DNA of 64,000 bases from Bryobacteraceae bacterium (GTDB taxonomy: Bacteria; Acidobacteriota; Terriglobia; Bryobacterales; Bryobacteraceae): positions 1 through 64,000 of the forward strand of contig JAHCHE010000030.1 in assembly GCA_026129905.1 (NCBI GenBank), in the 5' to 3' direction. The translations under genes were made by a program, and so were the position numbers. The notes beneath the pieces are model-generated. The model searched no databases. It was not told where the DNA came from and saw only the letters and a list, made by a program, of their open reading frames with translations. Position 1 is the stretch's first letter, and each line of letters opens with the position of its first letter. Below, in pieces: positions 6,061-44,640 of the stretch.

Positions 6061-6894
6061 ATGCAAGCGACAGCAACAGCGACGCAGATTCGCGACGATT
6101 TCGAGCAGCTTAGGGCTCGCCTGAAGAAAACCTGGATGACAGGCGACTACGACCGTTTTTCGCGCTTCATGGAAGCGGATGCGGAGCGGTTTTTCCAAAG
6201 GCTCGGCGTGAAACCGGGAACCCGCCTGCTGGATGTAGCCTGCGGCGCCGGACAACTGGCGCTGATCGCGGCCCGGGCGGGCGCGCGGGTGACGGGTTGC
6301 GACATCGCTACGAACTGGCTGGAGCGGGCCCGGTCTCGCGCCGCGTCCGAAGGGCTGAAGATCGCCTTTGACGAAGGCGATGCCGAAGCGCTTCCCTACG
6401 ACGACGGGCAATTTGACGTGGTCGCCAGCCTTGTCGGAGCGATGTTTGCGCCGCGCCCGGAACTGGTGGCGGCGGAACTTATCCGCGTGTGCCGGCCGGG
6501 CGGCGCGATTGCCATGGCGAACTGGACGCCCGGCGGGTTCATCGGCCAGATGTTCAAAACGATATCCCGGCACATTGCGCCGGCCGGCATGCCCGCGCCG
6601 GTGTTGTGGGGAGACGAAGGCATCGTTCGCCATCGTCTTCGGCCGGCCATCGCCGACCTGAAAATGATGCGGCGAGTCTATCATTTCGAATATCCGTGGC
6701 CGCCGGACCTGGTGGTGGAGTTCTACCGCGCCAATTATGGTCCGATGGCGCGCGCTTTCGCCTCTTTGGACGCCGGCGGACAGGAGGAACTGCGGAGGGA
6801 TCTCGTCCATCTGTGGTCGTCCCACAACACTGCCTTCGGCGACGTCACCCACGTCGAAGCCGAGTACCTCGAGGTGATGGCCACGCGCGGCTGA
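6061..6894 (+). CDS. Class I SAM-dependent methyltransferase
   Basis: 277 residues with the Rossmann-type methyltransferase core. Motif I LLDVACGAGQLA spans about 56-67, the acidic ribose-binding Asp81 ends strand 2 (RVTGCD), motif II is DGQFDVVASL, and the post-motif CRPGGAIAMANW follows. This is the UbiE/Methyltransf_11 type; substrate cannot be read from sequence. The start is supported by a strong AGGAGG five bases before ATG 6061. It is divergent from the AraC gene (237-base gap) and separated by 267 bases from the GH57 operon, so it is probably independently transcribed. Confidence 0.88.
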   Translation: MQATATATQIRDDFEQLRARLKKTWMTGDYDRFSRFMEADAERFFQRLGVKPGTRLLDVACGAGQLALIAARAGARVTGCDIATNWLERARSRAASEGLKIAFDEGDAEALPYDDGQFDVVASLVGAMFAPRPELVAAELIRVCRPGGAIAMANWTPGGFIGQMFKTISRHIAPAGMPAPVLWGDEGIVRHRLRPAIADLKMMRRVYHFEYPWPPDLVVEFYRANYGPMARAFASLDAGGQEELRRDLVHLWSSHNTAFGDVTHVEAEYLEVMATRG

Positions 6895-10184: not shown

Positions 10185-12035
10185 ATGGGTTCGCGTGCGC
10201 CATCGGCGCCCGCGCCTGGGCGCATACTCGGCCTGTACCGGTCGTTCGGCGTGTTCCTGAAGCCGTACCGGGGGCGCCTCGCGCTGGCATGGCTGGCGCT
10301 AGGCGCATCGGTCGGAATGACCGTACTCAAGCCGTGGCCTCTGAAGCTGGTCCTCGATTCGGTGCTGCTCGAAACGAAACGCATCGCCGACGTGATTCCA
10401 TTTCTCGAGTTTGTGGATTCCTGGGAGAAGCAGAGTATTCTCACGGCGCTATGCGCGGCGCTGGTTGCCATCGTACTGCTCGAGAGCGTGTTCGGCTACT
10501 TGCAGAAGGTCGTGTTCGCCACCGCCGGCCAGTCGGCCACCACCGATGTGCTGGAGCACGTTTACATGCACCTTCAGACGCTGCCGCGAACCTTCGAGGG
10601 CGGCGCGCGCACCGGAGACGTGATTCTGCGTCTGACGTCCGACATCAAGACAATGCGCGACCTGCTGGTGAACCACGTGCAGAAGCTCGGGACCTACGCG
10701 ATTACGTTCGCGGGCCTGATCGTGGTGATGGCGCTGATGGACTGGAGGTTGACGCTCGTCGGCCTCACGGTGATTCCTCCGATCTATTACGCCAGCTACC
10801 GGTTCGCGCGCCAGATCCGCCGGACGGCCAGCCGGAAACGAAGACGGGAAGGGCGCGTGGCGTCGATCGTGCAGGAAACTCTCGGGCTGCTGCCGGTGGT
10901 GCAGGCTTTCGCGCAGGAGGAACTGGAACGCGAGCGCTTGCGAGAGCAGGCGCGGCGGAGCCTGGATGCGGGGATCGAGAGCGCCCGCCTCGGCGGCGCC
11001 TTCACCCGTTCCATCAAGGTCCTGAACACGGTGGGTTCGGCGCTGGTCATCTGGGTGGGAGCAACGCGGGTTTTGAACGGCAGCCTCACTCCGGGCGACC
11101 TGGTCGTCTTTGCTTCCTACATGGCAGAGCTGTACGTGCCCATCCAGAACGTGTCGGAGTTGGCGGTTCAGTTCATGGAGTCGCTTGTTTCCGGCGAACG
11201 CGTTCAGGAACTGGTGCAGACGACGCCGCGGATCAAGGACGCGCCCGACGCCATCCGGCCGCCGCGCCTCAACGGAGAGATCCGATTCGAGAACGTAGTG
11301 TTCGGCTACACCGAAGGGCGTCCCGTGCTCGACGGGGTAACATTCACGATCGAGCCCGGGCAGATGGTTGCCATCGTCGGGGCCAGCGGCTCGGGCAAGT
11401 CGACCATTGCGAACCTCGTGCTGCGGTTCCACGATCCATGGGAAGGGCGGGTGATGGTGGACGGCTTGGATGTGCGCCGGTTGCGGGTGCGGGCGCTGCG
11501 GCGGCAGGTGAGCGTCGTGCTGCAGGAAGCGATCCTGTTCCGCCGAACGATAAAGGAGAACATCGGATACGGCAAGCCGTCGGCTGCGATGAGTGAGATC
11601 GTGGAGGCGGCGAAATCGGCGCGCGCGCACGACTTTGTCACGCGCCTGCCGGAGGGTTACGATATGCTTCTCGACGAGCAAGGGGGCAATCTTTCCGGCG
11701 GCCAGCGGCAGCGCATCGCCCTCGCTCGCGCGTTTCTCCGCAATGCGCCGATTCTGGTGCTGGACGAGCCGACCACCGGACTGGATCCCACGACCGAAAT
11801 GGAACTCCGGGAAACGCTGGAGGAATTGGCGGGCGGCAGAACCACGCTCCTGATCACCCACAGCCTTGCGATGGTCGAGCGCGCCGACGCGGTCCTGGTG
11901 CTGGAGGCCGGCCGAATTGTTCAGCGGGGCAGGCATGCCGAGTTACTGCGCGTCGACGGCGCGTATCGCGAACTTGTGGAGGCCCGGCGGCGCGAGGCGG
12001 CGCGGAGCGAAGATAGAGTCGGCAGGACCATATGA
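10185..12035 (+). CDS. ABC exporter half-transporter (fused membrane and ATPase domains)
   Basis: 616 residues: a six-helix type-1 exporter membrane domain (about 20-330), then an ATPase with Walker A GASGSGKST (399-407), Q-loop VLQEAILF, signature LSGGQ (503-507), Walker B ILVLDEP (523-529) and H-loop THS. This is the MsbA/Atm1-type architecture, which works as a homodimer in the inner membrane. A TTG two codons earlier is possible, but ATG 10185, just after the kinase stop, is chosen. The 3' end overlaps the start of the GH13 pseudogene (ATGA, 12032-12035). Cargo unknown; a saccharide or lipid-linked product would fit the operon. Confidence 0.9.
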   Translation: MGSRAPSAPAPGRILGLYRSFGVFLKPYRGRLALAWLALGASVGMTVLKPWPLKLVLDSVLLETKRIADVIPFLEFVDSWEKQSILTALCAALVAIVLLESVFGYLQKVVFATAGQSATTDVLEHVYMHLQTLPRTFEGGARTGDVILRLTSDIKTMRDLLVNHVQKLGTYAITFAGLIVVMALMDWRLTLVGLTVIPPIYYASYRFARQIRRTASRKRRREGRVASIVQETLGLLPVVQAFAQEELERERLREQARRSLDAGIESARLGGAFTRSIKVLNTVGSALVIWVGATRVLNGSLTPGDLVVFASYMAELYVPIQNVSELAVQFMESLVSGERVQELVQTTPRIKDAPDAIRPPRLNGEIRFENVVFGYTEGRPVLDGVTFTIEPGQMVAIVGASGSGKSTIANLVLRFHDPWEGRVMVDGLDVRRLRVRALRRQVSVVLQEAILFRRTIKENIGYGKPSAAMSEIVEAAKSARAHDFVTRLPEGYDMLLDEQGGNLSGGQRQRIALARAFLRNAPILVLDEPTTGLDPTTEMELRETLEELAGGRTTLLITHSLAMVERADAVLVLEAGRIVQRGRHAELLRVDGAYRELVEARRREAARSEDRVGRTI

Positions 12036-12450
12036 ACGCAGCCAACGCGGTTTGCTTCCGGTGCGCCGGCCTGGCGAGCCTGCTCGTGTGGTTGGGATCC
12101 GCCGGCGCCGGTCTGGGCCAGCCGGACACCAATCTCGTCTACCAGATCTTTGTCCGCTCCTTCGCCGATACGCCCGCGGACGCCGCGCCTGCTTCCGAGA
12201 AAGGAGAGGTCGGCGATGCTCAAGGGAATTCTTGAAAATCTCGACTATTTGAACGACGGAAATCCGAATACCGATCACGACCTGGAACGGGCATTCTCTG
12301 GCTGATGCCGATTGGCATGCCGGACTTGAATTTCGACGAACCGGAAATCCGCCGGGAGATCAAAGCCGTGGCGAAATTCTGGCTTGAAAAAGGAATCGAT
12401 GGGTTTCGGCTTGATGCCGCCAAGCACATTTATGGGGACATATTCGGGCC
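12032..12450 (+). pseudogene. Decayed secreted GH13 alpha-amylase
   Basis: ATG 12032 overlaps the ABC stop as ATGA and opens a signal peptide followed by TNLVYQIFVRSFAD, the typical N-terminus of bacterial GH13 amylases. After GEVGD near 12216 one extra base shifts the frame; the next frame gives [13 protein letters not shown] and PNTDHDL, the expected continuation. A second lesion near 12285 leads to GILWLMPI, which joins directly to [16 protein letters not shown] and the nucleophile region [14 protein letters not shown]. Strand-3 material between them is missing and the C-terminal two thirds is lost after about 12450. At least two frameshifts plus deletions make a pseudogene far more likely than sequencing error. 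The 3' boundary is approximate. Confidence 0.85.
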
Positions 12451-12673
12451 AATTCGCGCCCGTTGGCTGATGCTGCCGCGTCACACCCAGCCGGAAAAAG
12501 ATGTCCAGGCGATGCTGGACCATCTCCATCTGACTCTCCCCTCGCAACCGCAGCCACGAATCAGGGCGTCGCAACTCCCCCAGGCCCCTGCGCCCGCGCC
12601 GCCGGCTCAGCCCTCCCTGTGGTGAAGACCTTTGGGCAGCCCGCACTGATTCTGAAGTTGGAGATTGCGCTCA

Positions 12674-12830
12674 ATGAACAAAAGAGAGGCAAAGCGTAGG
12701 AAGAAACTGGCGTCGCTCAAGCGGGAGAGCGAGCAGGTCCAACTCGAACAGATCCGCCGCTGGCAACAACTGCCACCGGAACGCCGAACGAATTTCCTCC
12801 GGAAGCGCGTAGGAATCCGCGCTTCGGCGC
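12674..12830 (+). pseudogene. Small basic ORF fragment of unknown family
   Basis: The reading frame from ATG 12674 gives a highly charged helix (MNKREAKRRKKLASLKRESE) and RRWQQLPPERRTNFLRKRVG, which looks like real protein. It then runs on into sequence that is antisense to the metallophosphoesterase remnant, so its natural stop appears to be lost. I do not recognise the family. The context of broken genes on both sides suggests it is also a remnant, but an intact short protein ending elsewhere cannot be excluded. Confidence 0.35.
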
Positions 12831-12891
12831 GGCAGATCGCCGAGCACGCGCACCCTTGCCGCTCGTTTCTGCGTCCGGTGACCAACGTCCG

Positions 12892-13199
12892 TCAGGCGCC
12901 GGCCGCCCCCGGCGCCAGCGTCAACAGGCTGACCTCCGGGCGGCAGTTCAGCCGCACGCCGAGGATATTGCCCACCACTCGCGTGACGTGGACGTGGCGG
13001 CCGCGCCAGAGCCGGAGCCCCTCGGTGAAGCGCCGGTCTTTGATTGGGACGAACGGAGCGTAGCCGAGGACAGGGATGACGATCTGACCGCCGTAGGTGT
13101 GCCCGCTGAGCATCAGGTCCCAAGGGTAATCGCCGAGGGCAGCCGCGTGTCGGGGTTGTGGGCGAGCAGCAGCGTCGGAGCGCCGGACGGGTGCTCGAG
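12892..13199 (-). pseudogene. C-terminal remnant of a calcineurin-like metallophosphoesterase
   Basis: The minus strand encodes GAPTLLLAHNPDT, then after a frameshift near 13125 DYPWDLMLSGHTYGGQIV and IPVLGYAPFVPIKDRRFTEG, ending in a normal-looking NCRPEVSLLTL C-terminus. These are the His-ligand motifs (AHNPD, GHTYGG) of YaeI-type inner-membrane phosphoesterases. The N-terminal metal ligands (DxH, GD, GNHD) are absent. The 5' side is joined in frame to a KaiC fragment at about 13195, so it is a truncated and frameshifted pseudogene. Confidence 0.78.
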
Positions 13200-13469
13200 G
13201 TTCAGCACTCCGTGAACGATGCTCATGACGTTGGAATCATGTTGGCCGCCGGGCTTGTCGTCAATGAGCAGCGTCGTACAGTTGTGGCGTTCGAAGAACC
13301 GCTTCAGGCCCAGGACCTGCCGGCGGTAGCGACCAGCCATGCGACTCGCAAGTCTCCCTCAGTTCCCGCTCGGACTCCGACAGAGTGACAAACAGGCCGG
13401 TTTCGCCGGCTGCGCGGCCGGCCAGCAGGAACTGAAGCGCCATTGTTGTTTTGCCGGCCGCGCGCGAGG
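13200..13469 (-). pseudogene. KaiC/RecA-like ATPase remnant with internal deletion
   Basis: Read 5' to 3' on the minus strand it begins AAGKTTMALQFLLAGRAAGE, the Walker A region, followed by FVTLSESERELRETCESHGW. Near 13330 it jumps out of frame to RYRRQVLGLKRFFERHNC and TTLLIDD, the Walker B region of KaiC-like ATPases, then GVLNLEH. The P-loop glycines before GKTT are missing, and roughly the 60-70 residues normally between the two parts are deleted. It is fused upstream to an antitoxin remnant and downstream to a phosphoesterase remnant. Confidence 0.7.
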
Positions 13470-31409: not shown

Positions 31410-34400
31410 ATGAAGAAAGTTACACTCATCCTTGCCCTCGCGCTGCTTTGTTTCACGCTTCCGGCGTGGGCGCAGCGCGATTTGGGCACCATCGTCGGCA
31501 CAGTAACCGACCCGACCGGCGGCGTGATCGCCGGCGCCAGGGTAACCATTACCGAAGACGCGACCAGCCTCAGCTACCAGGTGCAGACGGACAGCGGGGG
31601 CAATTACGTCCGCCCGGCCTTGAAGCCCGGTATCTATTCCGTGCAGGTCGAGGCCACCGGCTTCAAAACCGGCGTGCAGCGCAACGTCACCCTGACTGCC
31701 GGCGACCGTGTACAAGCCAATGTCAGCATGCAGGTCGGCGACGTCGCCGAGTCCATCGAGGTCTCGGCCGCTCCACCCGCGCTCCAAACCGAAAGCACGA
31801 TCATCGGCCAGACCATCCAGGCGCGGTCCACCAGCGAATTGCCGCTGGGCGGCCAGCGGAAGTTCACATACCTGGCGCGGCTGTCGCCGTCTGTAGTGCC
31901 TGGCGAACCGGGCGCTCGCGACGCGGCGGGCGGCGCGTTTTCCGCCAACGGCGTCCGCTCCAACGGGCAGAACAACTTCCTGTTGAACGGCGTTGACAAT
32001 AACGTCAACGTCATCGACTTCATCAACCAGACGGCCTACGTCGTGGGTCCGTCGGTCGAGGCGATCGGCGAGATGAAGATCCTCACCAACGGCTACAACG
32101 CCGAATACGGACGAGGCGCGGGCGGCGTCGTCAACGTCACCATCAAATCCGGCACCAACGACATCCATGGGGTGTTATTCGAAAACCTCCAGAACGACAA
32201 GCTCGACGCCAACAAGTGGGAAAACAACCGCGCGGGCGCGAAGCGCGGTCCGTTCAAGCAGAACCTGTTCGGCGTGGCGATCGGGGGACCGATCATCCGG
32301 GACAAATTGTTCTGGTTCGCCGATTACCAGGGCATCCGCATCCGGTCCACCGGCGGCGCGGTCCCGGGCCTCGGCAACACCTTCACCCGTTCCATTCCCT
32401 GGCCGGCGTACAAGACCGGCGATTTCTCCCGGCTGCTCACCGGCGGGTCGTTAGGTACGGACGCCGCCGGCAACAATGTACCGGTGGGAGGCATCTTCGA
32501 TCCTCTCAACGTCGTCAACGGCGCCCGGCAGATGTTCCCTGGCAACCGGATTCCCCAATCCCGGTTCGATCCGGCGGCTGCCACGCTGATCGGCCAGTAC
32601 CCGAATCCCAACCAGAACCTTGGTGAACGGCTGGCCGACAACAACTTCATCGTGGTGACGTCCGGCCGGCAGCAGAACGACCAGGGCGATCTCCGGCTGG
32701 ACTACCGCTTGAGCGACAAGGATAGCCTGTTCGGCAGCCTGAGCTGGGTGGAGGAATCCAAGTTCCAGACCCCGCCGCTGCCTGGTCTCCTCGATGCCGG
32801 AGGTTTTGCCGGCGAGAGCGAGCAGAACCAGAGCCGCAACGCCATGATGAGTTGGACCCGCGTCTGGTCGCCGACCTTCCTTACCGAGACGCGCCTGGCG
32901 TTCAGCCGCCTCATTACCCAACGCACGCAAGCGAACTCGACGGTGGACGCGTTCCGGGAAGCGGGCATCGGGGGCATTAACCCGATCAGCGCGTATGCCC
33001 AGAACGGTGGCCTCCCGGCCATTGCGATTGACGGCTATTCGACCGTCGGCGGATCCGAATGGTTGCCAACGCTCGAGTACAACAACGTTTGGGACTTCAT
33101 CGAGAACGTGTCCATCATCAAGAGCGGCCATGCCATGAAGTTCGGGTTCGAGTATCGCCCGATCGACTTCCCGTTCTTCCAGGTACCGTCGCCACGCGGC
33201 ATCTTCGGCTTCCGCACCGGCTGGACTTCGGCCGGCCCGGGATTCGACGGCGTCGGCAGGACGGGTGATGGAATCGCCACGTGGCTGCTGGGCATGCCGG
33301 GATCGGGTACCCGCATCACGACGGCGAACTTCATCTCGTCGCAGAAAACCGCTTACGCCGGCTATTTCCAGGACGACTGGAAGGTAAGCCGGACGCTCAC
33401 GCTCAACCTCGGCGTTCGCTATGAGCTGTTCACGCCGATCGGCGAGAAGTTCGGACGGCAATCCGGCTTCGAATACGCCAAGGACATCCGAAACGAGCTC
33501 ACGCTGGTGATTCCCAAAGGCCCGAACCAGGATGCGCCGCTGCCGCCGAACTTCGCCACCACCTACCCGCAGATTGTCGTCGAGCGAGGCGTGGTGGACA
33601 AATACATGATCCCTTGGGACAAGAACAACTTCTCGCCGCGTATCGGTCTGGCCTGGCAAGCGGTGTCCAGGACCGTAATCCGCGCCGGCTATGGAATCTT
33701 CTATGGCGGCGAGGAGAACGAGGGTGGCGATCCGAACCGCGGCGAGTCGCTTCCGTTCAACCAGGAGGCGCAACTCATCCCCCAGACCAACTACGTCGCC
33801 AACCCGTTCATCCGGACCTTCGCCGAGGGCTTCCCCCTGGACACGTTCTCTTTGCCGGCGCCGATCCGCTTCCGGACGCCGGCCTGGAATTTCCGCACGC
33901 CCCTGGTGCATAAGTGGAACTTCGCCATCCAGCGCGAACTCGGGTTCAGCACGGTGGCGGAGATTTCCTACGTCGGCTCGAAGGGCCAGAACCTGCTGGT
34001 GTTGTGGAACGCGAACAATCCGGTGAATCATCCGGACCCGGGCGCCCTCAGGGCGCCAAGGCGCATTTACGGCATCGACACCGACATCACCGAGGCGGCG
34101 ACGTTCGGCCGCAGCAACTATCATGGGCTGAACGGCAAACTGGAGAAACGATTCTCCAACGGCCTCGACTTCCTGATGGCCTACACCTGGGGCCACGCTC
34201 TCACCGACGTCGGCACGACGCTCACCGGCGGCGGGGTCATCCGCGACGCCCGGAACTTCCGCGAGTCCGGCTACGCCAACGCGAATTTTGACGTCCGGCA
34301 CCGCTTCACCACCAGCTTCATGTACGAGCTTCCGTTCGGCCGGGGGCGGATGTTCGGCTCCGGCTGGAACCGGGCGGCTAACAGTGTTCTGGGCGGTTGG

Positions 34401-34847
34401 CAGATCAACGGGATCGTTACCATGCTGACCGGCTTCCCCAGAAGCATCACCGCCGCGTTCAACAGTTGCGCCTGCAATGCGCGAACTCCGGACGTTGTGT
34501 CCGGGAAGTCCCCGAGCAACGCACCCTCGGGCGGGCGCACGCCGGACCTTTGGTTCGACACCACCGCCGTGATGGCGCCGGCTCTCGGCACGCCGGGCAA
34601 CCTTGGTTCAATGTCGATCTTTGCTCCGGGTACCCGCAACGTCGACTTCTCGCTGTTCAAGCGGTTTTCCTTCACCGAGCGGTACGCCCTCACGTTCCGT
34701 TCGGAGTTCTTCAACATCAGCAACACGCCGCAATTCGACCCGACGCAGATGTCGCTGACGCAGGGCGGCGGCGGCTTCGGCCGGATTAACGGCACCATTG
34801 CCGGAACTGAGCGCCACGTGCAGTTCGCGCTCCGGTTCGAGTTCTAG
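31410..34847 (+). CDS. Oar-like TonB-dependent outer-membrane receptor with carboxypeptidase-regulatory domain
   Basis: 1145 residues. The signal peptide is MKKVTLILALALLCFTLPAW(A). A CarboxypepD_reg/beta-sandwich domain follows (about 23-115; GTIVGTVTDPTGGVIAGARV). A plug domain includes NGYNAEYGRGAGGVVNVTIK, then a long beta-barrel ends in the terminal Phe of QFALRFEF, the outer-membrane insertion signal. Such Oar-like receptors are greatly expanded in Acidobacteriota and are thought to import large substrates such as oligosaccharides. It is monocistronic: a strong promoter precedes it and an intrinsic terminator lies 22 bases after the stop. Substrate unknown; the divergent FG-GAP operon may be functionally linked. 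Confidence 0.92.
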   Translation: MKKVTLILALALLCFTLPAWAQRDLGTIVGTVTDPTGGVIAGARVTITEDATSLSYQVQTDSGGNYVRPALKPGIYSVQVEATGFKTGVQRNVTLTAGDRVQANVSMQVGDVAESIEVSAAPPALQTESTIIGQTIQARSTSELPLGGQRKFTYLARLSPSVVPGEPGARDAAGGAFSANGVRSNGQNNFLLNGVDNNVNVIDFINQTAYVVGPSVEAIGEMKILTNGYNAEYGRGAGGVVNVTIKSGTNDIHGVLFENLQNDKLDANKWENNRAGAKRGPFKQNLFGVAIGGPIIRDKLFWFADYQGIRIRSTGGAVPGLGNTFTRSIPWPAYKTGDFSRLLTGGSLGTDAAGNNVPVGGIFDPLNVVNGARQMFPGNRIPQSRFDPAAATLIGQYPNPNQNLGERLADNNFIVVTSGRQQNDQGDLRLDYRLSDKDSLFGSLSWVEESKFQTPPLPGLLDAGGFAGESEQNQSRNAMMSWTRVWSPTFLTETRLAFSRLITQRTQANSTVDAFREAGIGGINPISAYAQNGGLPAIAIDGYSTVGGSEWLPTLEYNNVWDFIENVSIIKSGHAMKFGFEYRPIDFPFFQVPSPRGIFGFRTGWTSAGPGFDGVGRTGDGIATWLLGMPGSGTRITTANFISSQKTAYAGYFQDDWKVSRTLTLNLGVRYELFTPIGEKFGRQSGFEYAKDIRNELTLVIPKGPNQDAPLPPNFATTYPQIVVERGVVDKYMIPWDKNNFSPRIGLAWQAVSRTVIRAGYGIFYGGEENEGGDPNRGESLPFNQEAQLIPQTNYVANPFIRTFAEGFPLDTFSLPAPIRFRTPAWNFRTPLVHKWNFAIQRELGFSTVAEISYVGSKGQNLLVLWNANNPVNHPDPGALRAPRRIYGIDTDITEAATFGRSNYHGLNGKLEKRFSNGLDFLMAYTWGHALTDVGTTLTGGGVIRDARNFRESGYANANFDVRHRFTTSFMYELPFGRGRMFGSGWNRAANSVLGGWQINGIVTMLTGFPRSITAAFNSCACNARTPDVVSGKSPSNAPSGGRTPDLWFDTTAVMAPALGTPGNLGSMSIFAPGTRNVDFSLFKRFSFTERYALTFRSEFFNISNTPQFDPTQMSLTQGGGGFGRINGTIAGTERHVQFALRFEF

Positions 34848-34868
34848 CCTCCTGGCAGCTTAGTCTGT

Positions 34869-34904
34869 GGCCCGCGTTGCCTTTTCCGGCGCGCGGGCCT
34901 TTTT
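34869..34904 (+). terminator. Rho-independent terminator after the TonB receptor gene
   Basis: GGCCCGCG (34869-34876) pairs with CGCGGGCC (34892-34899) across a 15-base loop and is followed directly by TTTTT (34900-34904). The stop codon of the receptor gene is at 34845-34847. Confidence 0.85.
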
Positions 34905-34918
34905 ATTGAGAAGAGCGG

Positions 34919-34960
34919 TCAGCGAACAGCGATCAGCGAACAGCGATCAGCTCTCAGCTT
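34919..34960. repeat. Heptanucleotide tandem repeat
   Basis: Six consecutive 7-base units: TCAGCGA, ACAGCGA, TCAGCGA, ACAGCGA, TCAGCTC, TCAGCTT. The first four keep the core CAGCGA and the last two diverge. It lies between the terminator and the following TPR gene. Heptameric tandem repeats are prone to copy-number change, but no function is evident. Confidence 0.8.
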
Positions 34961-35005
34961 TCCAGAGCCGGGCGCGCACGGCGCGCCAAAGGTAGACTGG
35001 TAGCG

Positions 35006-36268
35006 ATGGCGCCGCGGTTGTTGTTGATCTCTGCGTTCGCGGTCCTGTTGTCCGCCGGGCAGGGTTCCACGGAAGATTCGCTGCGCCAGGGATTGATCGC
35101 GCTGGAGCGGAACGAATTGCTCGCGGCGCGGAAACACCTGGAGGTGGCCGCGAGTGCGGAGCCGTCCGACCCCCGGGCTTGGCTTGGACTCGCGCGTGCC
35201 TGCTGGAAATCCGGACAGCGAGAGCAGGCGGCTGCAGCGATCTCCAAAGCCATTTCCACCGGCAAAGATCAGCCGGTCATCCAGCATGGGCTCGCCTTGT
35301 ATTTCGCCGAGGCGGAAGATTGGGCTCAAGCGGCGGCGTTCGAATCGAACTTTGCCGCGCTAAGCGGCGACGGCGATGCCTTCCTGCGCGCCGCTTCGCT
35401 CTACCTGCGCGGGCAAAGGGCCGAGGAGGCCATTCGGACCGCCTCGAACGCGCTGGAGAAAACGAACCGTGCGGACCTGCGCAATTTGTTGGGAAAAGCC
35501 TACGAAGCGGCGGGAAATTCCGGGCAGGCCCTGCTCGAATTCCAGCAGGCCGTCCGGTTGAACCCCTACGAAGAGGGCTACTATTTCGATCTCGCGCAGT
35601 TGCTGATGCGGCATCACAACTTCGACGTCGCCATCCAGGTGCTGGAGGCGTCGAAAAAGGTGATCGCCAAGAGTCCGCAACTTGAGCTGGCGCTCGGCGT
35701 GGCCTATTACGGCCAGCGCCGCTTCCCGGACGCCGTGGCGTCGTTTCTCCGCACCATCGATCTCGATCCCGGCGTACCGCAGCCGTATATTTATCTAGGT
35801 CGTACGCTCGAGAACGCCACGGAACGAATGCTGGAAATCGAGCGAAAGTTCACAGCATACGCCGAAGCGCATCCGAAAAGCGCGCTCGGCCCGTTCCTCG
35901 TGGCCAAGGCGATTTTCGTCCAATTACCGCCGGGTGGCTATCCGCCGCAAGCGGAAAAGGCGGAAGCGCTCTTGCGGCGGTCGCTGGCAATCAAGGAAAA
36001 CGAGTGGGAAACGCACCATCTGCTCGGATCCTTGCTCGAGCGCAAAGGCGACCTGGACCAGGCGGCGGCCTCCCTTAAGCGCGCCATTGAATTGAACCCC
36101 GCCAATCCGGCCCCGCATCTGCCGCTGGCGCGCGTCTATCTGCGTCAGGGCAACAAGGACGACGCCGCCCGCGAACGCACGCTGTTCAAGGACCTGACCC
36201 AGGCCCAGGAGACCGCCATTCAGGAAAGGGCCGCCTCAATGAAGCGCTTCGAGCTTTCGGTGAAGTGA
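35006..36268 (+). CDS. Secreted TPR-repeat protein
   Basis: 420 residues with a signal peptide (PRLLLISAFAVLLSAG) and about ten TPR motifs, including ALLEFQQAVRLNPYEEGYYF, AVASFLRTIDLDPGVPQPYI and AAASLKRAIELNPANPAPHL. It is similar in design to the secreted TPR protein at 26.5 kb, so it probably works outside the cytoplasm. No FG-GAP gene is adjacent on this strand. Likely transcribed alone from the region containing the heptameric repeat. Exact role unknown. Confidence 0.85.
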   Translation: MAPRLLLISAFAVLLSAGQGSTEDSLRQGLIALERNELLAARKHLEVAASAEPSDPRAWLGLARACWKSGQREQAAAAISKAISTGKDQPVIQHGLALYFAEAEDWAQAAAFESNFAALSGDGDAFLRAASLYLRGQRAEEAIRTASNALEKTNRADLRNLLGKAYEAAGNSGQALLEFQQAVRLNPYEEGYYFDLAQLLMRHHNFDVAIQVLEASKKVIAKSPQLELALGVAYYGQRRFPDAVASFLRTIDLDPGVPQPYIYLGRTLENATERMLEIERKFTAYAEAHPKSALGPFLVAKAIFVQLPPGGYPPQAEKAEALLRRSLAIKENEWETHHLLGSLLERKGDLDQAAASLKRAIELNPANPAPHLPLARVYLRQGNKDDAARERTLFKDLTQAQETAIQERAASMKRFELSVK

Positions 36269-36352: not shown

Positions 36353-38605
36353 ATGATGTCAAGCATGACCGAACACCGTGTCTGCCAGGTCCAGCGGAAA
36401 ACGCCCGGGGAGACGGTGATTGCCCATTTGTCCGATCTGCATTTCAAGGCGGGCAGCCGGACGAACGCGCCGGAATGGGGGGCTCTTGCCGAAGATCTGA
36501 AGCTCCATAAGGTGGATGTCATCGCCGTCACGGGCGACCTCGTGGATAATCCGTTGATCGACAAAGTGGCGCTGCGCAACATCAGCGGCGTGCTTGACAA
36601 AGTTGGGACGTTTCTCGAATCGGAACTCTGTGTAGCCGCGCAAGTCGACAAGGCCGAAGGTCTCATCGTGCTGCCCGGCAATCACGATTACCGATTGCAG
36701 GGCATCGGGGTTGTCGCGGACGATCAGCCATTTCGGAATCGCTTCAAGGATTTGATGGTCCACCGCATCTACCCAAACCTGCGCCTCTGCACCCTCGTTT
36801 TCGATTCGAATCGGGATGTTGCCGCGAATAACTTTGCCGCCGGTTTGGTCGATAAGAACAAGATTCTGGAAGCTGTCGCCCTGACGCGGACGGTTTCCCA
36901 GGAGTGGGAAACGAGCGCCCGGGTCGCGCTTCTGCACCATCACCCCATGCCCATCGGCCCTACCGAGCATCGCGCGGGCGTAACAGATCGCGAAGAATTC
37001 TTGCTGTTGAAGAACGCCGGGCTGTTCATGTTGGAAATGGCGGGATGTCGCGTCGATCTGATACTCCACGGACACAAGCACTTCCCGTCCGTCTCCCGGG
37101 CAACGTTCTCCGTATCGCCAGGAGAGGACCATACTCTGATCGTGGTCGCCGCCGGAAGCGCCGGCGCAGCCAGGCCACAAACCTACAACCTCGTCCGTAT
37201 TAGCGATTCAGGCGAAATCGAGTTGGAGCGCCGGAACTTGGACAATGTGACGTACAAGACGGCGATCTCACAGAAGTTGCTGTCGTACGAACAGGCGAGA
37301 CCCGGTTTGAGAGAGAGAGCGGCCAGACGGCATCCGCCGCTATTACAAGTGGCCAAGTCTCACGTATGCCACATGATACGTGCGCGGTCGGGTGACGACG
37401 CGATCCGCGAACGTTTCGAAGAGGTGAGGGCGTTCGGCCGCCCGGAGATCGACGAAGTAGACGGCTACGTCGAATCCGCTTCCGGCTGCTTCAATGAACC
37501 GCGGTTTCTGGAGATCTATCCTCCAGATCAACGCATCTGGTGGCAGTGGAAGTCTGTGGTAGGGACCCGGCGCGAAGCCTCCACTCACTTCAAGCCTGCC
37601 ATAGGCCGGCAGCCGGTGCGGTTTACGCGTGAACGGATCACGTTTAATGCGATCCATTCCAACTGGCGCGACCGCTGGGATACGCTGCGGAGCCGAGGGG
37701 AAACGGACCAGGCGCGGGCGGCTGTGGAGAGCATCTGGCATCAAATCCGATACGCCTACGATTCGCTCGTGATCCAGGTGATCTTCCCGGATCTCTACTT
37801 TCCCGCGCGCTGTTGGGCCGAGGCGGGCACTTGGATGGACCGCCGCTTTGAGCGCGATGGGAGAGAAACCGCGCACATTGCGCCGGCATTCGCGCTATTC
37901 CCGGAAACGAGAACGGCCGTGCTCGCGCTTCGACAGCCTATCATGGAACACATTTACCGCATTGCCTGGGAGTTGCCGGACATCGATCCAGAGGAGCGCG
38001 AACTGCGGCTTGAGGATAAAGCCGAAGCCGCGGACCTGGCCGAAAGATTTATGGGTGTGCAAAACCGGCCCGTCGAAATGCAGCGCGCCTTGGCAGCAGT
38101 CCAGGATTTCATCGGCCGGGAGTATCCTCCGGCGCCGGAGGAACTGCATACCTCCTTGCACGCGTATGACGAGAAGGCAGGCATGTTGGTCAAGGTGGCT
38201 TCGACCGGCGCGTTGAACCAGGCGCGGAAGCACACCGCGATTGGCAGAACACTCGTCGGTCAGGCTTGGCGCCGTCGCGAGTTGGTATGCGCCAGTTGGT
38301 TGAATCCGAAGGCCTGGCAGGACAACTTGTGCGACGAGCCCCCCGCCGATGAGTACAAAACTCCGGCGGCAGCGATTGCGTTTCCCCTCTTCAGCCCTCC
38401 ACTCGGGGGCGTCCGCGTAGCGGTGCTCTACATCGCCACCAGTTCGCGCCGGTGCGGTCTGATCCGGATCTGTGCGGAGGCCCACCAGTCTGCGGGGCGG
38501 AGAGAGCCGCGGAGCGAGTTGGTCCATAAGTTCGAGACCCATCTCACCGCCTGGGGGGCCGGCGATATGCGCAGAGCTCTTTCCCTTCCAGGAGCGCAGG
38601 TTTAA
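36353..38605 (+). CDS. Calcineurin-like phosphoesterase with unknown middle region and GAF-like C-terminus
   Basis: 750 residues. The phosphoesterase domain (about 20-300) has all metal-site motifs: Asp28/His30 (SDLHF), Asp62 (TGDLVDN), Asn110/His111 (PGNHDY), the His run 195-197 (LLHHHPMP) and GHKH (His241/His243). About 310-590 matches nothing I recognise. About 600-735 looks GAF-like (MLVKVASTGALNQ, IGRTLVGQAWRRRELV, AIAFPLFSPPLGGVRVAVLYI). No signal peptide, so cytoplasmic. Several ATGs are possible (36353, 36356, 36365). Codon use is less GC-rich than neighbours. A 53-residue acidic ORF follows after 23 bases. A sensor-controlled nuclease or phosphodiesterase, perhaps in stress or defence, is inference. 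Confidence 0.82.
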   Translation: MMSSMTEHRVCQVQRKTPGETVIAHLSDLHFKAGSRTNAPEWGALAEDLKLHKVDVIAVTGDLVDNPLIDKVALRNISGVLDKVGTFLESELCVAAQVDKAEGLIVLPGNHDYRLQGIGVVADDQPFRNRFKDLMVHRIYPNLRLCTLVFDSNRDVAANNFAAGLVDKNKILEAVALTRTVSQEWETSARVALLHHHPMPIGPTEHRAGVTDREEFLLLKNAGLFMLEMAGCRVDLILHGHKHFPSVSRATFSVSPGEDHTLIVVAAGSAGAARPQTYNLVRISDSGEIELERRNLDNVTYKTAISQKLLSYEQARPGLRERAARRHPPLLQVAKSHVCHMIRARSGDDAIRERFEEVRAFGRPEIDEVDGYVESASGCFNEPRFLEIYPPDQRIWWQWKSVVGTRREASTHFKPAIGRQPVRFTRERITFNAIHSNWRDRWDTLRSRGETDQARAAVESIWHQIRYAYDSLVIQVIFPDLYFPARCWAEAGTWMDRRFERDGRETAHIAPAFALFPETRTAVLALRQPIMEHIYRIAWELPDIDPEERELRLEDKAEAADLAERFMGVQNRPVEMQRALAAVQDFIGREYPPAPEELHTSLHAYDEKAGMLVKVASTGALNQARKHTAIGRTLVGQAWRRRELVCASWLNPKAWQDNLCDEPPADEYKTPAAAIAFPLFSPPLGGVRVAVLYIATSSRRCGLIRICAEAHQSAGRREPRSELVHKFETHLTAWGAGDMRRALSLPGAQV

Positions 38606-38628
38606 CAGATGGTAGACTAGGTGTAGAG

Positions 38629-38790
38629 ATGGATAGCGCTTTCGATTGTACGGAATTGTCGCCGAATACATCCAGCGTTCGGGTGGAGATCACCGCCGAA
38701 GAGCTCCGGACCGCGCTGAAGGAACTGGAAGAAGCGAAATCCGACCGCCAGCCGTCCCACGATCCGGACACAACAGTCCACTCCCGCTAG
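38629..38790 (+). CDS. Small acidic protein (53 residues) next to the phosphoesterase
   Basis: ATG 38629 to TAG 38790, 53 residues: a polar start (MDSAFDCTELSPN), then a strand-helix-like stretch VRVEITAEELRTALKELEEA and a polar tail. Composition is acidic and amphipathic, and it is placed 23 bases after the phosphoesterase stop on the same strand. A weak AGGTGTAGAG precedes the start. Family unknown; it could be a partner or inhibitor of the upstream protein. A chance ORF is possible because it is short. Confidence 0.5.
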   Translation: MDSAFDCTELSPNTSSVRVEITAEELRTALKELEEAKSDRQPSHDPDTTVHSR

Positions 38791-41849: not shown

Positions 41850-44249
41850 CTATGCGGCGGTCCGGACGCCTCGCGGATCGCGCCAGTATGGTTTCCAGGC
41901 CAGCGACAGGAGCTTGATCGAGATGTCGGTCTTGCGCGCCCGGACTTCCATCGCCTCGAGCGGCTGCGTTCGCGGATCGACGCGCGACTCGATCAGCGCC
42001 GTCTCCGAGGCGAACTCGGACTGAAGGTCGGCCAATTGGCGGCGGCAGGCTTCCAGCGTGTCGCCCGCCCGTTCGACGTCGGCGGCTTCCCGCTGCGCCT
42101 TGCCCATCGAGCGGACCGCGCCGCCGGCGCGGCTCACGGTGGAGCTGCTGATCACGCGTCGTCCCAGCAGCGCGCCGAGCAGCGTGGCGCCTATGGAAAC
42201 GGTGGACTCGAGCTTGGATTGTCGCGCCTGCAACTGCTCGCGCTGCACGGCGGCCTCGGCGCGACGGATTTTTTCTTCCAATACGCGGAATTTCGGCGCG
42301 TATTTCTGACGTAGGGCTTCCACCGCGCGGTCGCGCTCCTCCCTGGAAGCGAGTTCGAGTCGGATGCGGAAGTCCCGCTCGGACTCGCCGGGATTCGAGC
42401 TCTGCTTCAGCGCCGCGCTGCGGTAGAGGGTGGCCGTCTGCGTGTCGGCCAGCCACTGGACGAATCCACGGCTCCAGTCCGCGTAGTTCTTTGGCAGCAG
42501 GGCGGCCCGGGGCAGAGGAGCGAAATCGGCGTCCGGACGCGGGGCCGATTCCAGTTCGTTCACCTCCAATGGGAGGGGGGACGCGGAATCCCAACCGACG
42601 GCGGGGTTCTCTTCGCGGATCGGCGCTTCAAATCCCAACTCCTGGCGGTGGTCGTATCGCGCCGCGGCGTTCACGAAGCGGATCGATGCAAAGCCGGCCA
42701 GCACGGGTTCATAGGAGAGTCGCGCGCTCGCCGGAGCATGGGACCTTACGGGCAGGAAACACTGCGGAATTTCCGGCGGCAGGACGGGCTGCCGGGATCC
42801 TTGAAAGGGCGCGGCCGCCGCGTCGTCCGGCTTGGCGGGCGAGGCCTGCGACAGCAGCCGGATCTGCGCGCGGGTGAGCGGTCCGGCCAGGTAGGAAAGG
42901 GCCCAGCGCGTCTCGAATGTCTCCGGGACATCCTCGTGCACGTTGTACATCAGGAAAATGCGCTTGCCCAGACCCGCCAGCGTCCGTTCCATCGCCGGCC
43001 GGTTGAACGGAGCCCCGGTGGCGGCCACCGCGCCAGCCAGTCCGTCCAGGACGCGTGCCTGGTCACGCTCGGTTTGCAGCCGCCCGATGAACCACGTGCC
43101 GGCGTTGCCGAGCGCCTTGTAGTCGATGTCCACCGGATTTTGCGTAGCCAGCGCGACGCCCAACCCGAAGGCGCGCCCTTGCTTTAGCAGCGTCATCATG
43201 GGTGGTTTGGACGGAGGATTGGCAACCGGCGGCAGGTAGCCGGCGACCTCGTCCATGTAGAAAAGGGCGCGCAGACTGGTGGCGCCGGGCTGCTTGCGCA
43301 TCCAACTGACCGTGTGGTTCAGCAGCATCGAAACGAAAAACATGCGTTCGGCGTCATTGAGGTGCGCGATCGAGAAGATCGAGACGCGGGGCTTCGCCGT
43401 CTCCGTGTAAAGCATCCGGTCGATATCCAGCGGCTCGCCCGCCAGCCACGCCTCAAAACCGGGTGACGCAAGCACGTTATTGAGCGTCATGGCCAGCGAG
43501 AAGCGCTCCCGCGCCGGGTAGAAGGTTTCCAGGTCCAGCACGCCCACCCGCGAAGCAGGCGGATTCTGGATCTCCCCGATCAGGCCGGCCAGTTCGATGT
43601 TCCGGCGCTGCTTCCAGGCACTATCAAGAATGAGCGAAAGCAGGATGTGCTCCCTGCTGCGAGCCGGATCGGCATCGATGCCCAACAGGCCGAGCAGGGA
43701 GGTCGCCGTTGCCTGGATGCGCTCTCGAAGAAGTTCCCGGTCGTCGAGCACCTGCGGAGGCGGCGCGTCGAAGGACCGGAGCAGGGAAACCTGACGTCCC
43801 GCCTCGCTGCCCGGCGTGTAGATGCAGAAGTCGGCCGCTTCCCGCAGACGGCGAATGCGGGATGCGTCCTGGTCCCACCGCGCCAGCCCGGCTCGCCACG
43901 TTTCCGCCTGTTGCGCGGCGTAGACCTCCGGAGTGACTCCCTTCCGGCGGGGAGCGTCGTCGGGTATCCAGGGCGCGAAGTCCCGCAGGTCCAGGTCCGG
44001 GAACGTCAGCATCAAGTTCCCCAGATCGCCCTTGGGATCCACCACGATCGCGGGAATCCCGTCGATGGCGGCTTCTTCCAGCAGAACGGTGCACAAACCC
44101 GTCTTGCCGCTGCCGGTCATCCCGAAGCAGGCGGCGTGCGTTACAAGGTCCTTGGAGTCGTACAGCAGCAAGCCCGGTTTGGGCTGCCCGGCGATCGGGT
44201 CGTAGGGGCGGCCGAGGTAAAAGACCCCTAGCTTCTCGTAGTCGATCAT
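41850..44249 (-). CDS. HerA/FtsK-type P-loop ATPase (DUF87-like) with C-terminal coiled coil
   Basis: 799 residues. Walker A is GMTGSGKT (43-50) in a HerA-like context (THAACFGMTGSGKTGLCTVLLEE split over the loop), with IVVDPKGDLGNL nearby. Walker B is LFYMDEVAGYLPP, and ALATQNPVDIDYKALGN and FLMYNVHEDVPE follow. After about 620 the sequence is long charged helices, probably coiled coil, with a short hydrophobic insert (GATLLGALLG). Homologs are motor ATPases acting on DNA or proteins; the role here is unknown. An upstream ATG at 44285 adds 12 residues; ATG 44249 (MIDYEKLGVFYLG) fits the domain start better. Confidence 0.82.
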   Translation of the reverse strand: MIDYEKLGVFYLGRPYDPIAGQPKPGLLLYDSKDLVTHAACFGMTGSGKTGLCTVLLEEAAIDGIPAIVVDPKGDLGNLMLTFPDLDLRDFAPWIPDDAPRRKGVTPEVYAAQQAETWRAGLARWDQDASRIRRLREAADFCIYTPGSEAGRQVSLLRSFDAPPPQVLDDRELLRERIQATATSLLGLLGIDADPARSREHILLSLILDSAWKQRRNIELAGLIGEIQNPPASRVGVLDLETFYPARERFSLAMTLNNVLASPGFEAWLAGEPLDIDRMLYTETAKPRVSIFSIAHLNDAERMFFVSMLLNHTVSWMRKQPGATSLRALFYMDEVAGYLPPVANPPSKPPMMTLLKQGRAFGLGVALATQNPVDIDYKALGNAGTWFIGRLQTERDQARVLDGLAGAVAATGAPFNRPAMERTLAGLGKRIFLMYNVHEDVPETFETRWALSYLAGPLTRAQIRLLSQASPAKPDDAAAAPFQGSRQPVLPPEIPQCFLPVRSHAPASARLSYEPVLAGFASIRFVNAAARYDHRQELGFEAPIREENPAVGWDSASPLPLEVNELESAPRPDADFAPLPRAALLPKNYADWSRGFVQWLADTQTATLYRSAALKQSSNPGESERDFRIRLELASREERDRAVEALRQKYAPKFRVLEEKIRRAEAAVQREQLQARQSKLESTVSIGATLLGALLGRRVISSSTVSRAGGAVRSMGKAQREAADVERAGDTLEACRRQLADLQSEFASETALIESRVDPRTQPLEAMEVRARKTDISIKLLSLAWKPYWRDPRGVRTAA

Positions 44250-44640
44250 AGGCGAACGGCGTTTCCAATCATAACCGATCCCCACGGGTCTTTCCTGGGC
44301 CGGGACGAGCGTAAGGGGGTGTCAATACCCGCAAAAGGGTGAAACGGACCTGGATAGCACTCGTGACGATTTGCGCTACATCTCACATTTTAAAGGGCTG
44401 ACTAGTACGATAAGTACTAACCCGGGGCGCTAGGGATACTTTCCACTAGTCAAGGAGATGATTTGCGGATAAACTGGGAAGGAACATGTAGGTCGCCTGA
44501 CACCGGCGAGAGCCTACCTACGATGCCGCTTGGAAGACCGAAAAGGGGGAGGAGTGACCACGGGCGGCACGAAAATGACCGGTGGGAGGTGCGGCCATGC
44601 GCAATCGTGATGTAGAGGGTCAACTCCGTCTAGCGAGAGA
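44250..44640. promoter_or_regulatory. Intergenic leader region before the glycosyltransferase gene
   Basis: 391 bases without a convincing long gene. It contains nested palindromes: GACTAGT (44400-44406) with ACTAGTC (44445-44451), and inside them TAGTAC-GATAA-GTACTA (44403-44419). A hairpin with 5+5 paired bases spans 44488-44517. A 23-codon ORF (44597-44668) has GGGAGG ahead of its ATG and runs into the glycosyltransferase start, so translational coupling is possible. The glycosyltransferase GTG itself lacks a good Shine-Dalgarno. No known riboswitch was recognised. Confidence 0.45.

Follow-up and report, generated by a model that had tools for sequence, protein, structure and literature searches.

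The two-gene locus and the domains of its large protein

Within the window, i.e., the whole stretch of 64,000 nucleotides analyzed here, we found a pair of adjacent genes on the forward strand. The first is an open frame at 36353..38605 that encodes a protein of 750 aa, composed of a calcineurin-type metallophosphoesterase (MPE) domain, a domain named X, and a GAF domain. The second, at 38629..38790, encodes a partner of 53 aa and starts 23 bases past the stop of the first, as an earlier note on this DNA had claimed; its product is indeed acidic (pI 4.6; 12 acidic against 6 basic residues).

The MPE domain (residues 23-282; 36419..37198, forward strand) has the complete calcineurin-type active site that had been reported for it. 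All metal and catalytic motifs are present (SDLH at residues 27-30, TGD at 60-62, PGNHD at 108-112, HHH at 195-197, and GHKH at 240-243), and the domain matches Pfam families Metallophos PF00149 (residues 23-244; E = 2.1e-11, 45 bits with a cut-off of 21.5) and PF12850 (E = 2.7e-6). Only metallophosphatase families were found by Pfam in the window protein, with no SAVED, cNMP-binding, STAND, NACHT, or other NTPase domain and no GAF domain called when this protein was run alone.

Domain X (residues ~313-543; 37289..37981, forward strand) corresponds to the approximately 280 residues previously described as unrecognized. It is a conserved domain that lacks a Pfam match in 11 of 11 members and also lacks a PDB match. 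In leave-one-out tests, every member was recovered by the X profile (E = 1e-6 to 1e-25; 3e-21 for the window protein) and by the GAF profile (E = 3.6e-10 to 8e-28; 6.5e-11 for the window protein), and no non-member scored below 0.1 with either. Structure prediction of the middle and C-terminal part had been proposed as a check. An X-only model of the homolog G003, based on two sequences, is all-beta with a mean pLDDT of 48.9 (about 60-83 in the second half), whereas a full-length AlphaFold model from two sequences had a mean pLDDT of 34 and was unusable. Domain X is predicted from the former, at low confidence, to be all-beta, with a fold that cannot be named from the model. Foldseek comparison of this model with PDB and viral models returned nothing at E <= 0.001. 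A DUF2207 beta-sandwich was considered for X and rejected, since hhalign of the X profile with Escherichia coli YciQ gave a probability of 0.1%.

The C-terminal GAF domain (residues ~597-735, with approximate limits; 38141..38557, forward strand) was borne out by a family profile that matches Pfam GAF proteins and PDB GAF structures, namely, 3e0y (E = 1.6e-4), 5w10, and 4g3k (both near 0.015). GAF domains are frequent in ordinary signaling proteins. When nine proteins matched by the family profile were examined, all were found to carry Pfam GAF domains (kinases and other regulators), and we therefore rejected the many weak phylum-wide profile matches as relatives and regard them as ordinary GAF regulators. 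By profile, the window protein resembles GAF signaling proteins (kinases, SpoIIE phosphatases, EAL proteins, and sigma-54 activators) in its C-terminal domain. However, it differs from them in that its GAF domain is C-terminal, following X and an effector of immune type, and in being encoded together with a small protein.

Relatives of the X-GAF unit and exchange of effectors

A single-query search with the window gene found one relative of equal plan (MPE, middle part, and GAF-like end) in the same family (G003 on L009), and the sole match in a scan of genome contigs was the 10,456-base contig of this relative, there belonging to an Acidobacteria MAG (L021). The first MPE motifs of G003 (SDLHF and TGDLADNP; L009:6720-6960) are out of frame with the rest of the gene, which is a frameshift or an assembly error. 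Stepwise queries added G049 (L012, 790 aa) and G352 (L016, 845 aa). A profile of the middle and GAF parts (A5) was then scanned against 257 genomes of the order, and matches were found in eight of them, counting the window's own genome. Among 396 genomes sampled across the phylum, there were three X-GAF proteins and one X-only protein.

Beyond the window, these profile searches placed the X-GAF unit in eight further proteins, such that the fused architecture does occur in other genomes, with varying N-termini: an MPE in three, a DUF676-type hydrolase in three, a CAP12/PycTIR-type TIR in one, and a transmembrane (TM) helix in one. The alpha/beta hydrolases (L024, L025, and L027; Pfam E down to 4.5e-8) have a nucleophile motif, CHSMGG or CHSLGG, visible in the sequence. 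The TIR domain (G536 on L026) was recognized by Pfam (E = 8.9e-16) and matches PADLOC models of CBASS/Pycsar TIR effectors down to E = 1.5e-30. The TM helix of L023 was read from the sequence. Domain X also occurs without GAF, behind an MPE (L028) or TM helices; the latter arrangement is seen in other families of the phylum (L088:1003-2091, forward; L089:1477-2379, reverse; and L017:250-1101, reverse). Plasmid and phage searches gave matches to the MPE part only, none carrying X-GAF, and the two plasmid matches examined were short MPE genes; no relative was found in scans of viral contigs.

A nine-member tree of the X-GAF unit joins the window protein to the TM protein (with support of 100/99) and to the TIR protein (97/97), and it places the other three MPE proteins apart from them. 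The well-supported branches require two changes of the MPE label. Furthermore, L016 and L009 are sisters in this tree, yet their MPE domains are DS-8-like and DS-9-like, respectively. Because the window protein clusters with the TM and TIR members and not with the other MPE proteins, we conclude that effectors have been swapped on a shared X-GAF unit. Changing the effector while the sensor stays fixed is characteristic of immune modules in bacteria, and bacterial immune or abortive systems usually act through effectors such as TIR, calcineurin-type MPE, lipase-like, and TM domains.

The metallophosphatase defense proteins DS-8 and DS-9 have been validated by experiment as protecting against phages, and their metallophosphatase residues are essential (PMC13092281). 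We used the DefensePredictor study (PMC13092281) and the NCBIfam models NF053861 and NF053862 as the reference for DS-8 and DS-9A. The closest curated model to the window MPE is DS-9A (NF053862, DS9_1_antiphage; E = 1.4e-16), scoring 60 bits where the cut-off is 420, far from a match at the level of the whole protein. Similarly, the MPE domains of G049 and G352 match DS-9A (E = 1.3e-28) and DS-8 (E = 2.4e-24), respectively, both far below the family cut-offs. The N-terminal metallophosphoesterase is thus homologous to those of DS-8 and DS-9, but the remainder here is X and GAF plus the 53-aa partner: DS-9 has a HAD phosphatase gene, whereas none adjoins the window gene, and DS-8 has a NACHT domain behind the metallophosphatase, which the window protein lacks.

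Some members of the family also share kinds of effector domain with CBASS and Pycsar. For example, the MPE of G352 matches the calcineurin-type CBASS "Endonuclease" model of PADLOC (E = 8.7e-14), and the window protein itself has only a weak match, to PDC-S60. However, the receptor in those systems is a SAVED, STING, or cNMP-binding domain, whereas the shared unit here is X-GAF, with no cyclase nearby. In prokaryotic conflict systems, GAF has been listed among nucleotide-binding receptors and calcineurin-type MPE among effectors (PMC7159879), and bacterial TRADD-N proteins have variable effectors ahead of one shared domain (PMC8195603). The design is alike, in that N-terminal effectors which vary strongly (TIR, calcineurin-like MPE, and others) precede a shared domain; unlike them, X matches no Pfam family, and the window protein has no STAND, NACHT, or other NTPase domain. 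On the features compared, the window protein falls outside DS-8, DS-9, CBASS, and Pycsar; it may nevertheless work like them.

The small partner gene

The two-gene order recurs in other genomes, with a small ORF of 52-78 aa directly downstream of seven of the nine X-GAF genes. The earlier note would have been contradicted by homologs that everywhere lack the C-terminal region and the small ORF, and we found homologs in other genomes that have both. It starts 23 bases after the X-GAF gene in the window and G508, 36 in G475, 39 in G003, and 2 in G049; that of G609 starts at +1 or from an internal ATG, and that of G352 has a TTG start and overlaps the final part of the effector gene. No such ORF was found at G507, at G536, or at G517 and G069, the two loci without GAF that were examined. 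The chance that an ATG-initiated ORF of 50-100 aa starts within 60 bases of a random point is 11%, and the probability of six of nine X-GAF loci having one by chance is about 1e-4.

The small proteins of the window and G475 are each other's best match in a set of 1,483 ORFs, their similarity was equaled in none of 5,000 shuffles, and their codons differ at 12 of the 18 residues that they share, a sign of selection acting on the small protein. The small proteins of G003 and G352 also pair (7 of 5,000 shuffles as good). Significant similarity is confined to these two pairs, and the remaining ORFs have diverged past significant alignment, e.g., G609 and G508 (615 of 5,000 shuffles as good). No small ORF has a convincing Pfam match. 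The C-terminal tail of G507 was considered as a fused small ORF and rejected for lack of significance, since 747 of 5,000 shuffles scored equally well. From its position beside X-GAF genes and its match to the G475 ORF, we regard the small ORF as a real gene, and since its homologs accompany an MPE in the window and a TM effector in G475, it tracks X-GAF rather than the effector.

This last point bears on whether the pair is a toxin-antitoxin system, in which the 53-aa protein would serve as dedicated antitoxin to a toxic large protein and the two would form an addiction or abortive module without a small-molecule ligand. As in type II systems, a small gene adjoins a large one, here with 23 bases between a potentially toxic enzyme and a small acidic protein, and the G003 copy has VapBC-like genes next to it. 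However, a small protein that is homologous beside MPE and TM effectors is not matched to the toxin, a GAF sensor is foreign to classical pairs, and X-GAF members exist without the small ORF (G507 and G536). We consider this explanation unlikely. Because the small protein stays with X-GAF when the effector changes, a role as X-GAF regulator fits better than one as effector antidote.

Genomic context and proposed function

The pair had been likened to a mobile accessory cassette that is less GC-rich than its neighbors. Its GC content is lower, at 0.601 compared with 0.639 across the window (4th percentile among tiles of this size), but only modestly so; GC3 of the large gene is 0.72, compared with 0.77-0.85 in flanking genes. 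The neighbors are unrelated as claimed, namely, a TPR gene and an SDR-type oxidoreductase gene (read from translations). Together with the patchy occurrence, these are indirect indications of mobility, but no mobility gene was seen and no clean empty site was found. The TonB-type receptor gene and TPR gene upstream (31410-36268, forward strand) are again adjacent in several related genomes (L068, L073, L078, L080, and L081), and such pairs exist in relatives that lack the module, but the right-hand neighbors of the window were not found there.

Across the X-GAF loci, neighbors differ from locus to locus and are mostly housekeeping-like. The anticipated enrichment in defense islands was not found: among 66 neighboring proteins from ten loci, PADLOC matches were confined to four models, each hit by a single protein (RmuC-type, mad3, and two of PDC-S03). 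Among the same 66 proteins, there is no second-messenger cyclase of CBASS (CD-NTase) or Pycsar type, and no cyclase, NTPase, or HAD partner gene was found for X-GAF genes. This makes it very improbable that the protein is an orphan CBASS- or Pycsar-like receptor-effector served by a cyclase elsewhere in the genome. Such an origin of the signal would agree with the TIR and MPE effectors that match CBASS/Pycsar models and with 5w10, which the GAF profile matches weakly (E = 0.015) and whose PDB entry names it a cGMP-specific phosphodiesterase, but CBASS and Pycsar are themselves compact operons, and the window protein has no SAVED or cNMP-binding domain.

The housekeeping surroundings, outside defense islands, and the commonness of GAF in regulators would also suit a non-immune signaling or stress regulator, with a GAF domain that detects a metabolite and N-terminal enzymes that work on cell envelope, lipid, or nucleotide pools as part of normal physiology. 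Yet the exchanged set (CAP12/Pycsar TIR, DS-8/DS-9-like MPE, lipase-like, and TM) is that of immune effectors, and the occurrence is sparse and patchy; we judge this account about as improbable as that of a toxin-antitoxin pair. For an immune role, we counted the patchy occurrence, the DS-9A/DS-8-like MPE, the CBASS/Pycsar-type TIR, and the small ORF beside both MPE and TM members. Against it, we counted the absence of defense islands and of a nearby source of a signal molecule, the missing small ORF at G507 and G536, the restriction of significant small-ORF similarity to two pairs, and the frequency of GAF in ordinary signaling proteins. The proposal of a ligand-gated stress or defense module is thus favored by the exchange of immune-type effectors and the conserved pairing but not by genomic location.

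These patterns suggest a previously unrecognized ligand-gated defense or self-killing switch. We see about even chances that the pair belongs to a modular two-gene family in which an immune- or abortive-type effector would be gated by X-GAF with a small regulator. In such a module, the variable N-terminal effector, here a putative metal-dependent phosphodiesterase or nuclease, would be controlled by the shared X-GAF unit: GAF may bind a small molecule or other cue, X may relay the signal or oligomerize and so turn on the effector, and the active effector would damage nucleic acid or the nucleotide pool and stop growth. The trigger would most likely be phage infection or a comparable stress, and the small protein may tune the X-GAF unit as an inhibitor or co-sensor. 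More tentatively, and with less than even probability, the family may represent an undescribed class of immunity, in which X and GAF with their partner of 50-80 aa form a plug-in sensor for exchanged MPE, TIR, lipase-like, and membrane effectors, responding directly to a small molecule with no dedicated cyclase and located outside defense islands.

The new elements are a sensor half with a domain absent from Pfam and PDB, GAF as a would-be receptor, and a tiny conserved partner gene. Because these genes stand alone among housekeeping genes, discovery based on defense islands would miss them. If the gated module is real, it would offer a directly testable ligand-gated defense or suicide switch and a handle on the targets of metallophosphatase defense proteins such as DS-8 and DS-9.

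Several other genes near these loci were read from translations. A HerA/DUF87-like ATPase is encoded on the reverse strand of the window (41850-44285), approximately 3 kb from the pair, with no link found. A VapB-VapC-like pair (L009:3793-4508) lies just past the G003 effector gene and its small ORF. On L029, McrB/McrC-like genes (11181-13438) and a Uma2-like ORF (6094-6597) lie no more than 8 kb from the TM-X-GAF gene of G475, and these provide the only hint of a defense neighborhood.
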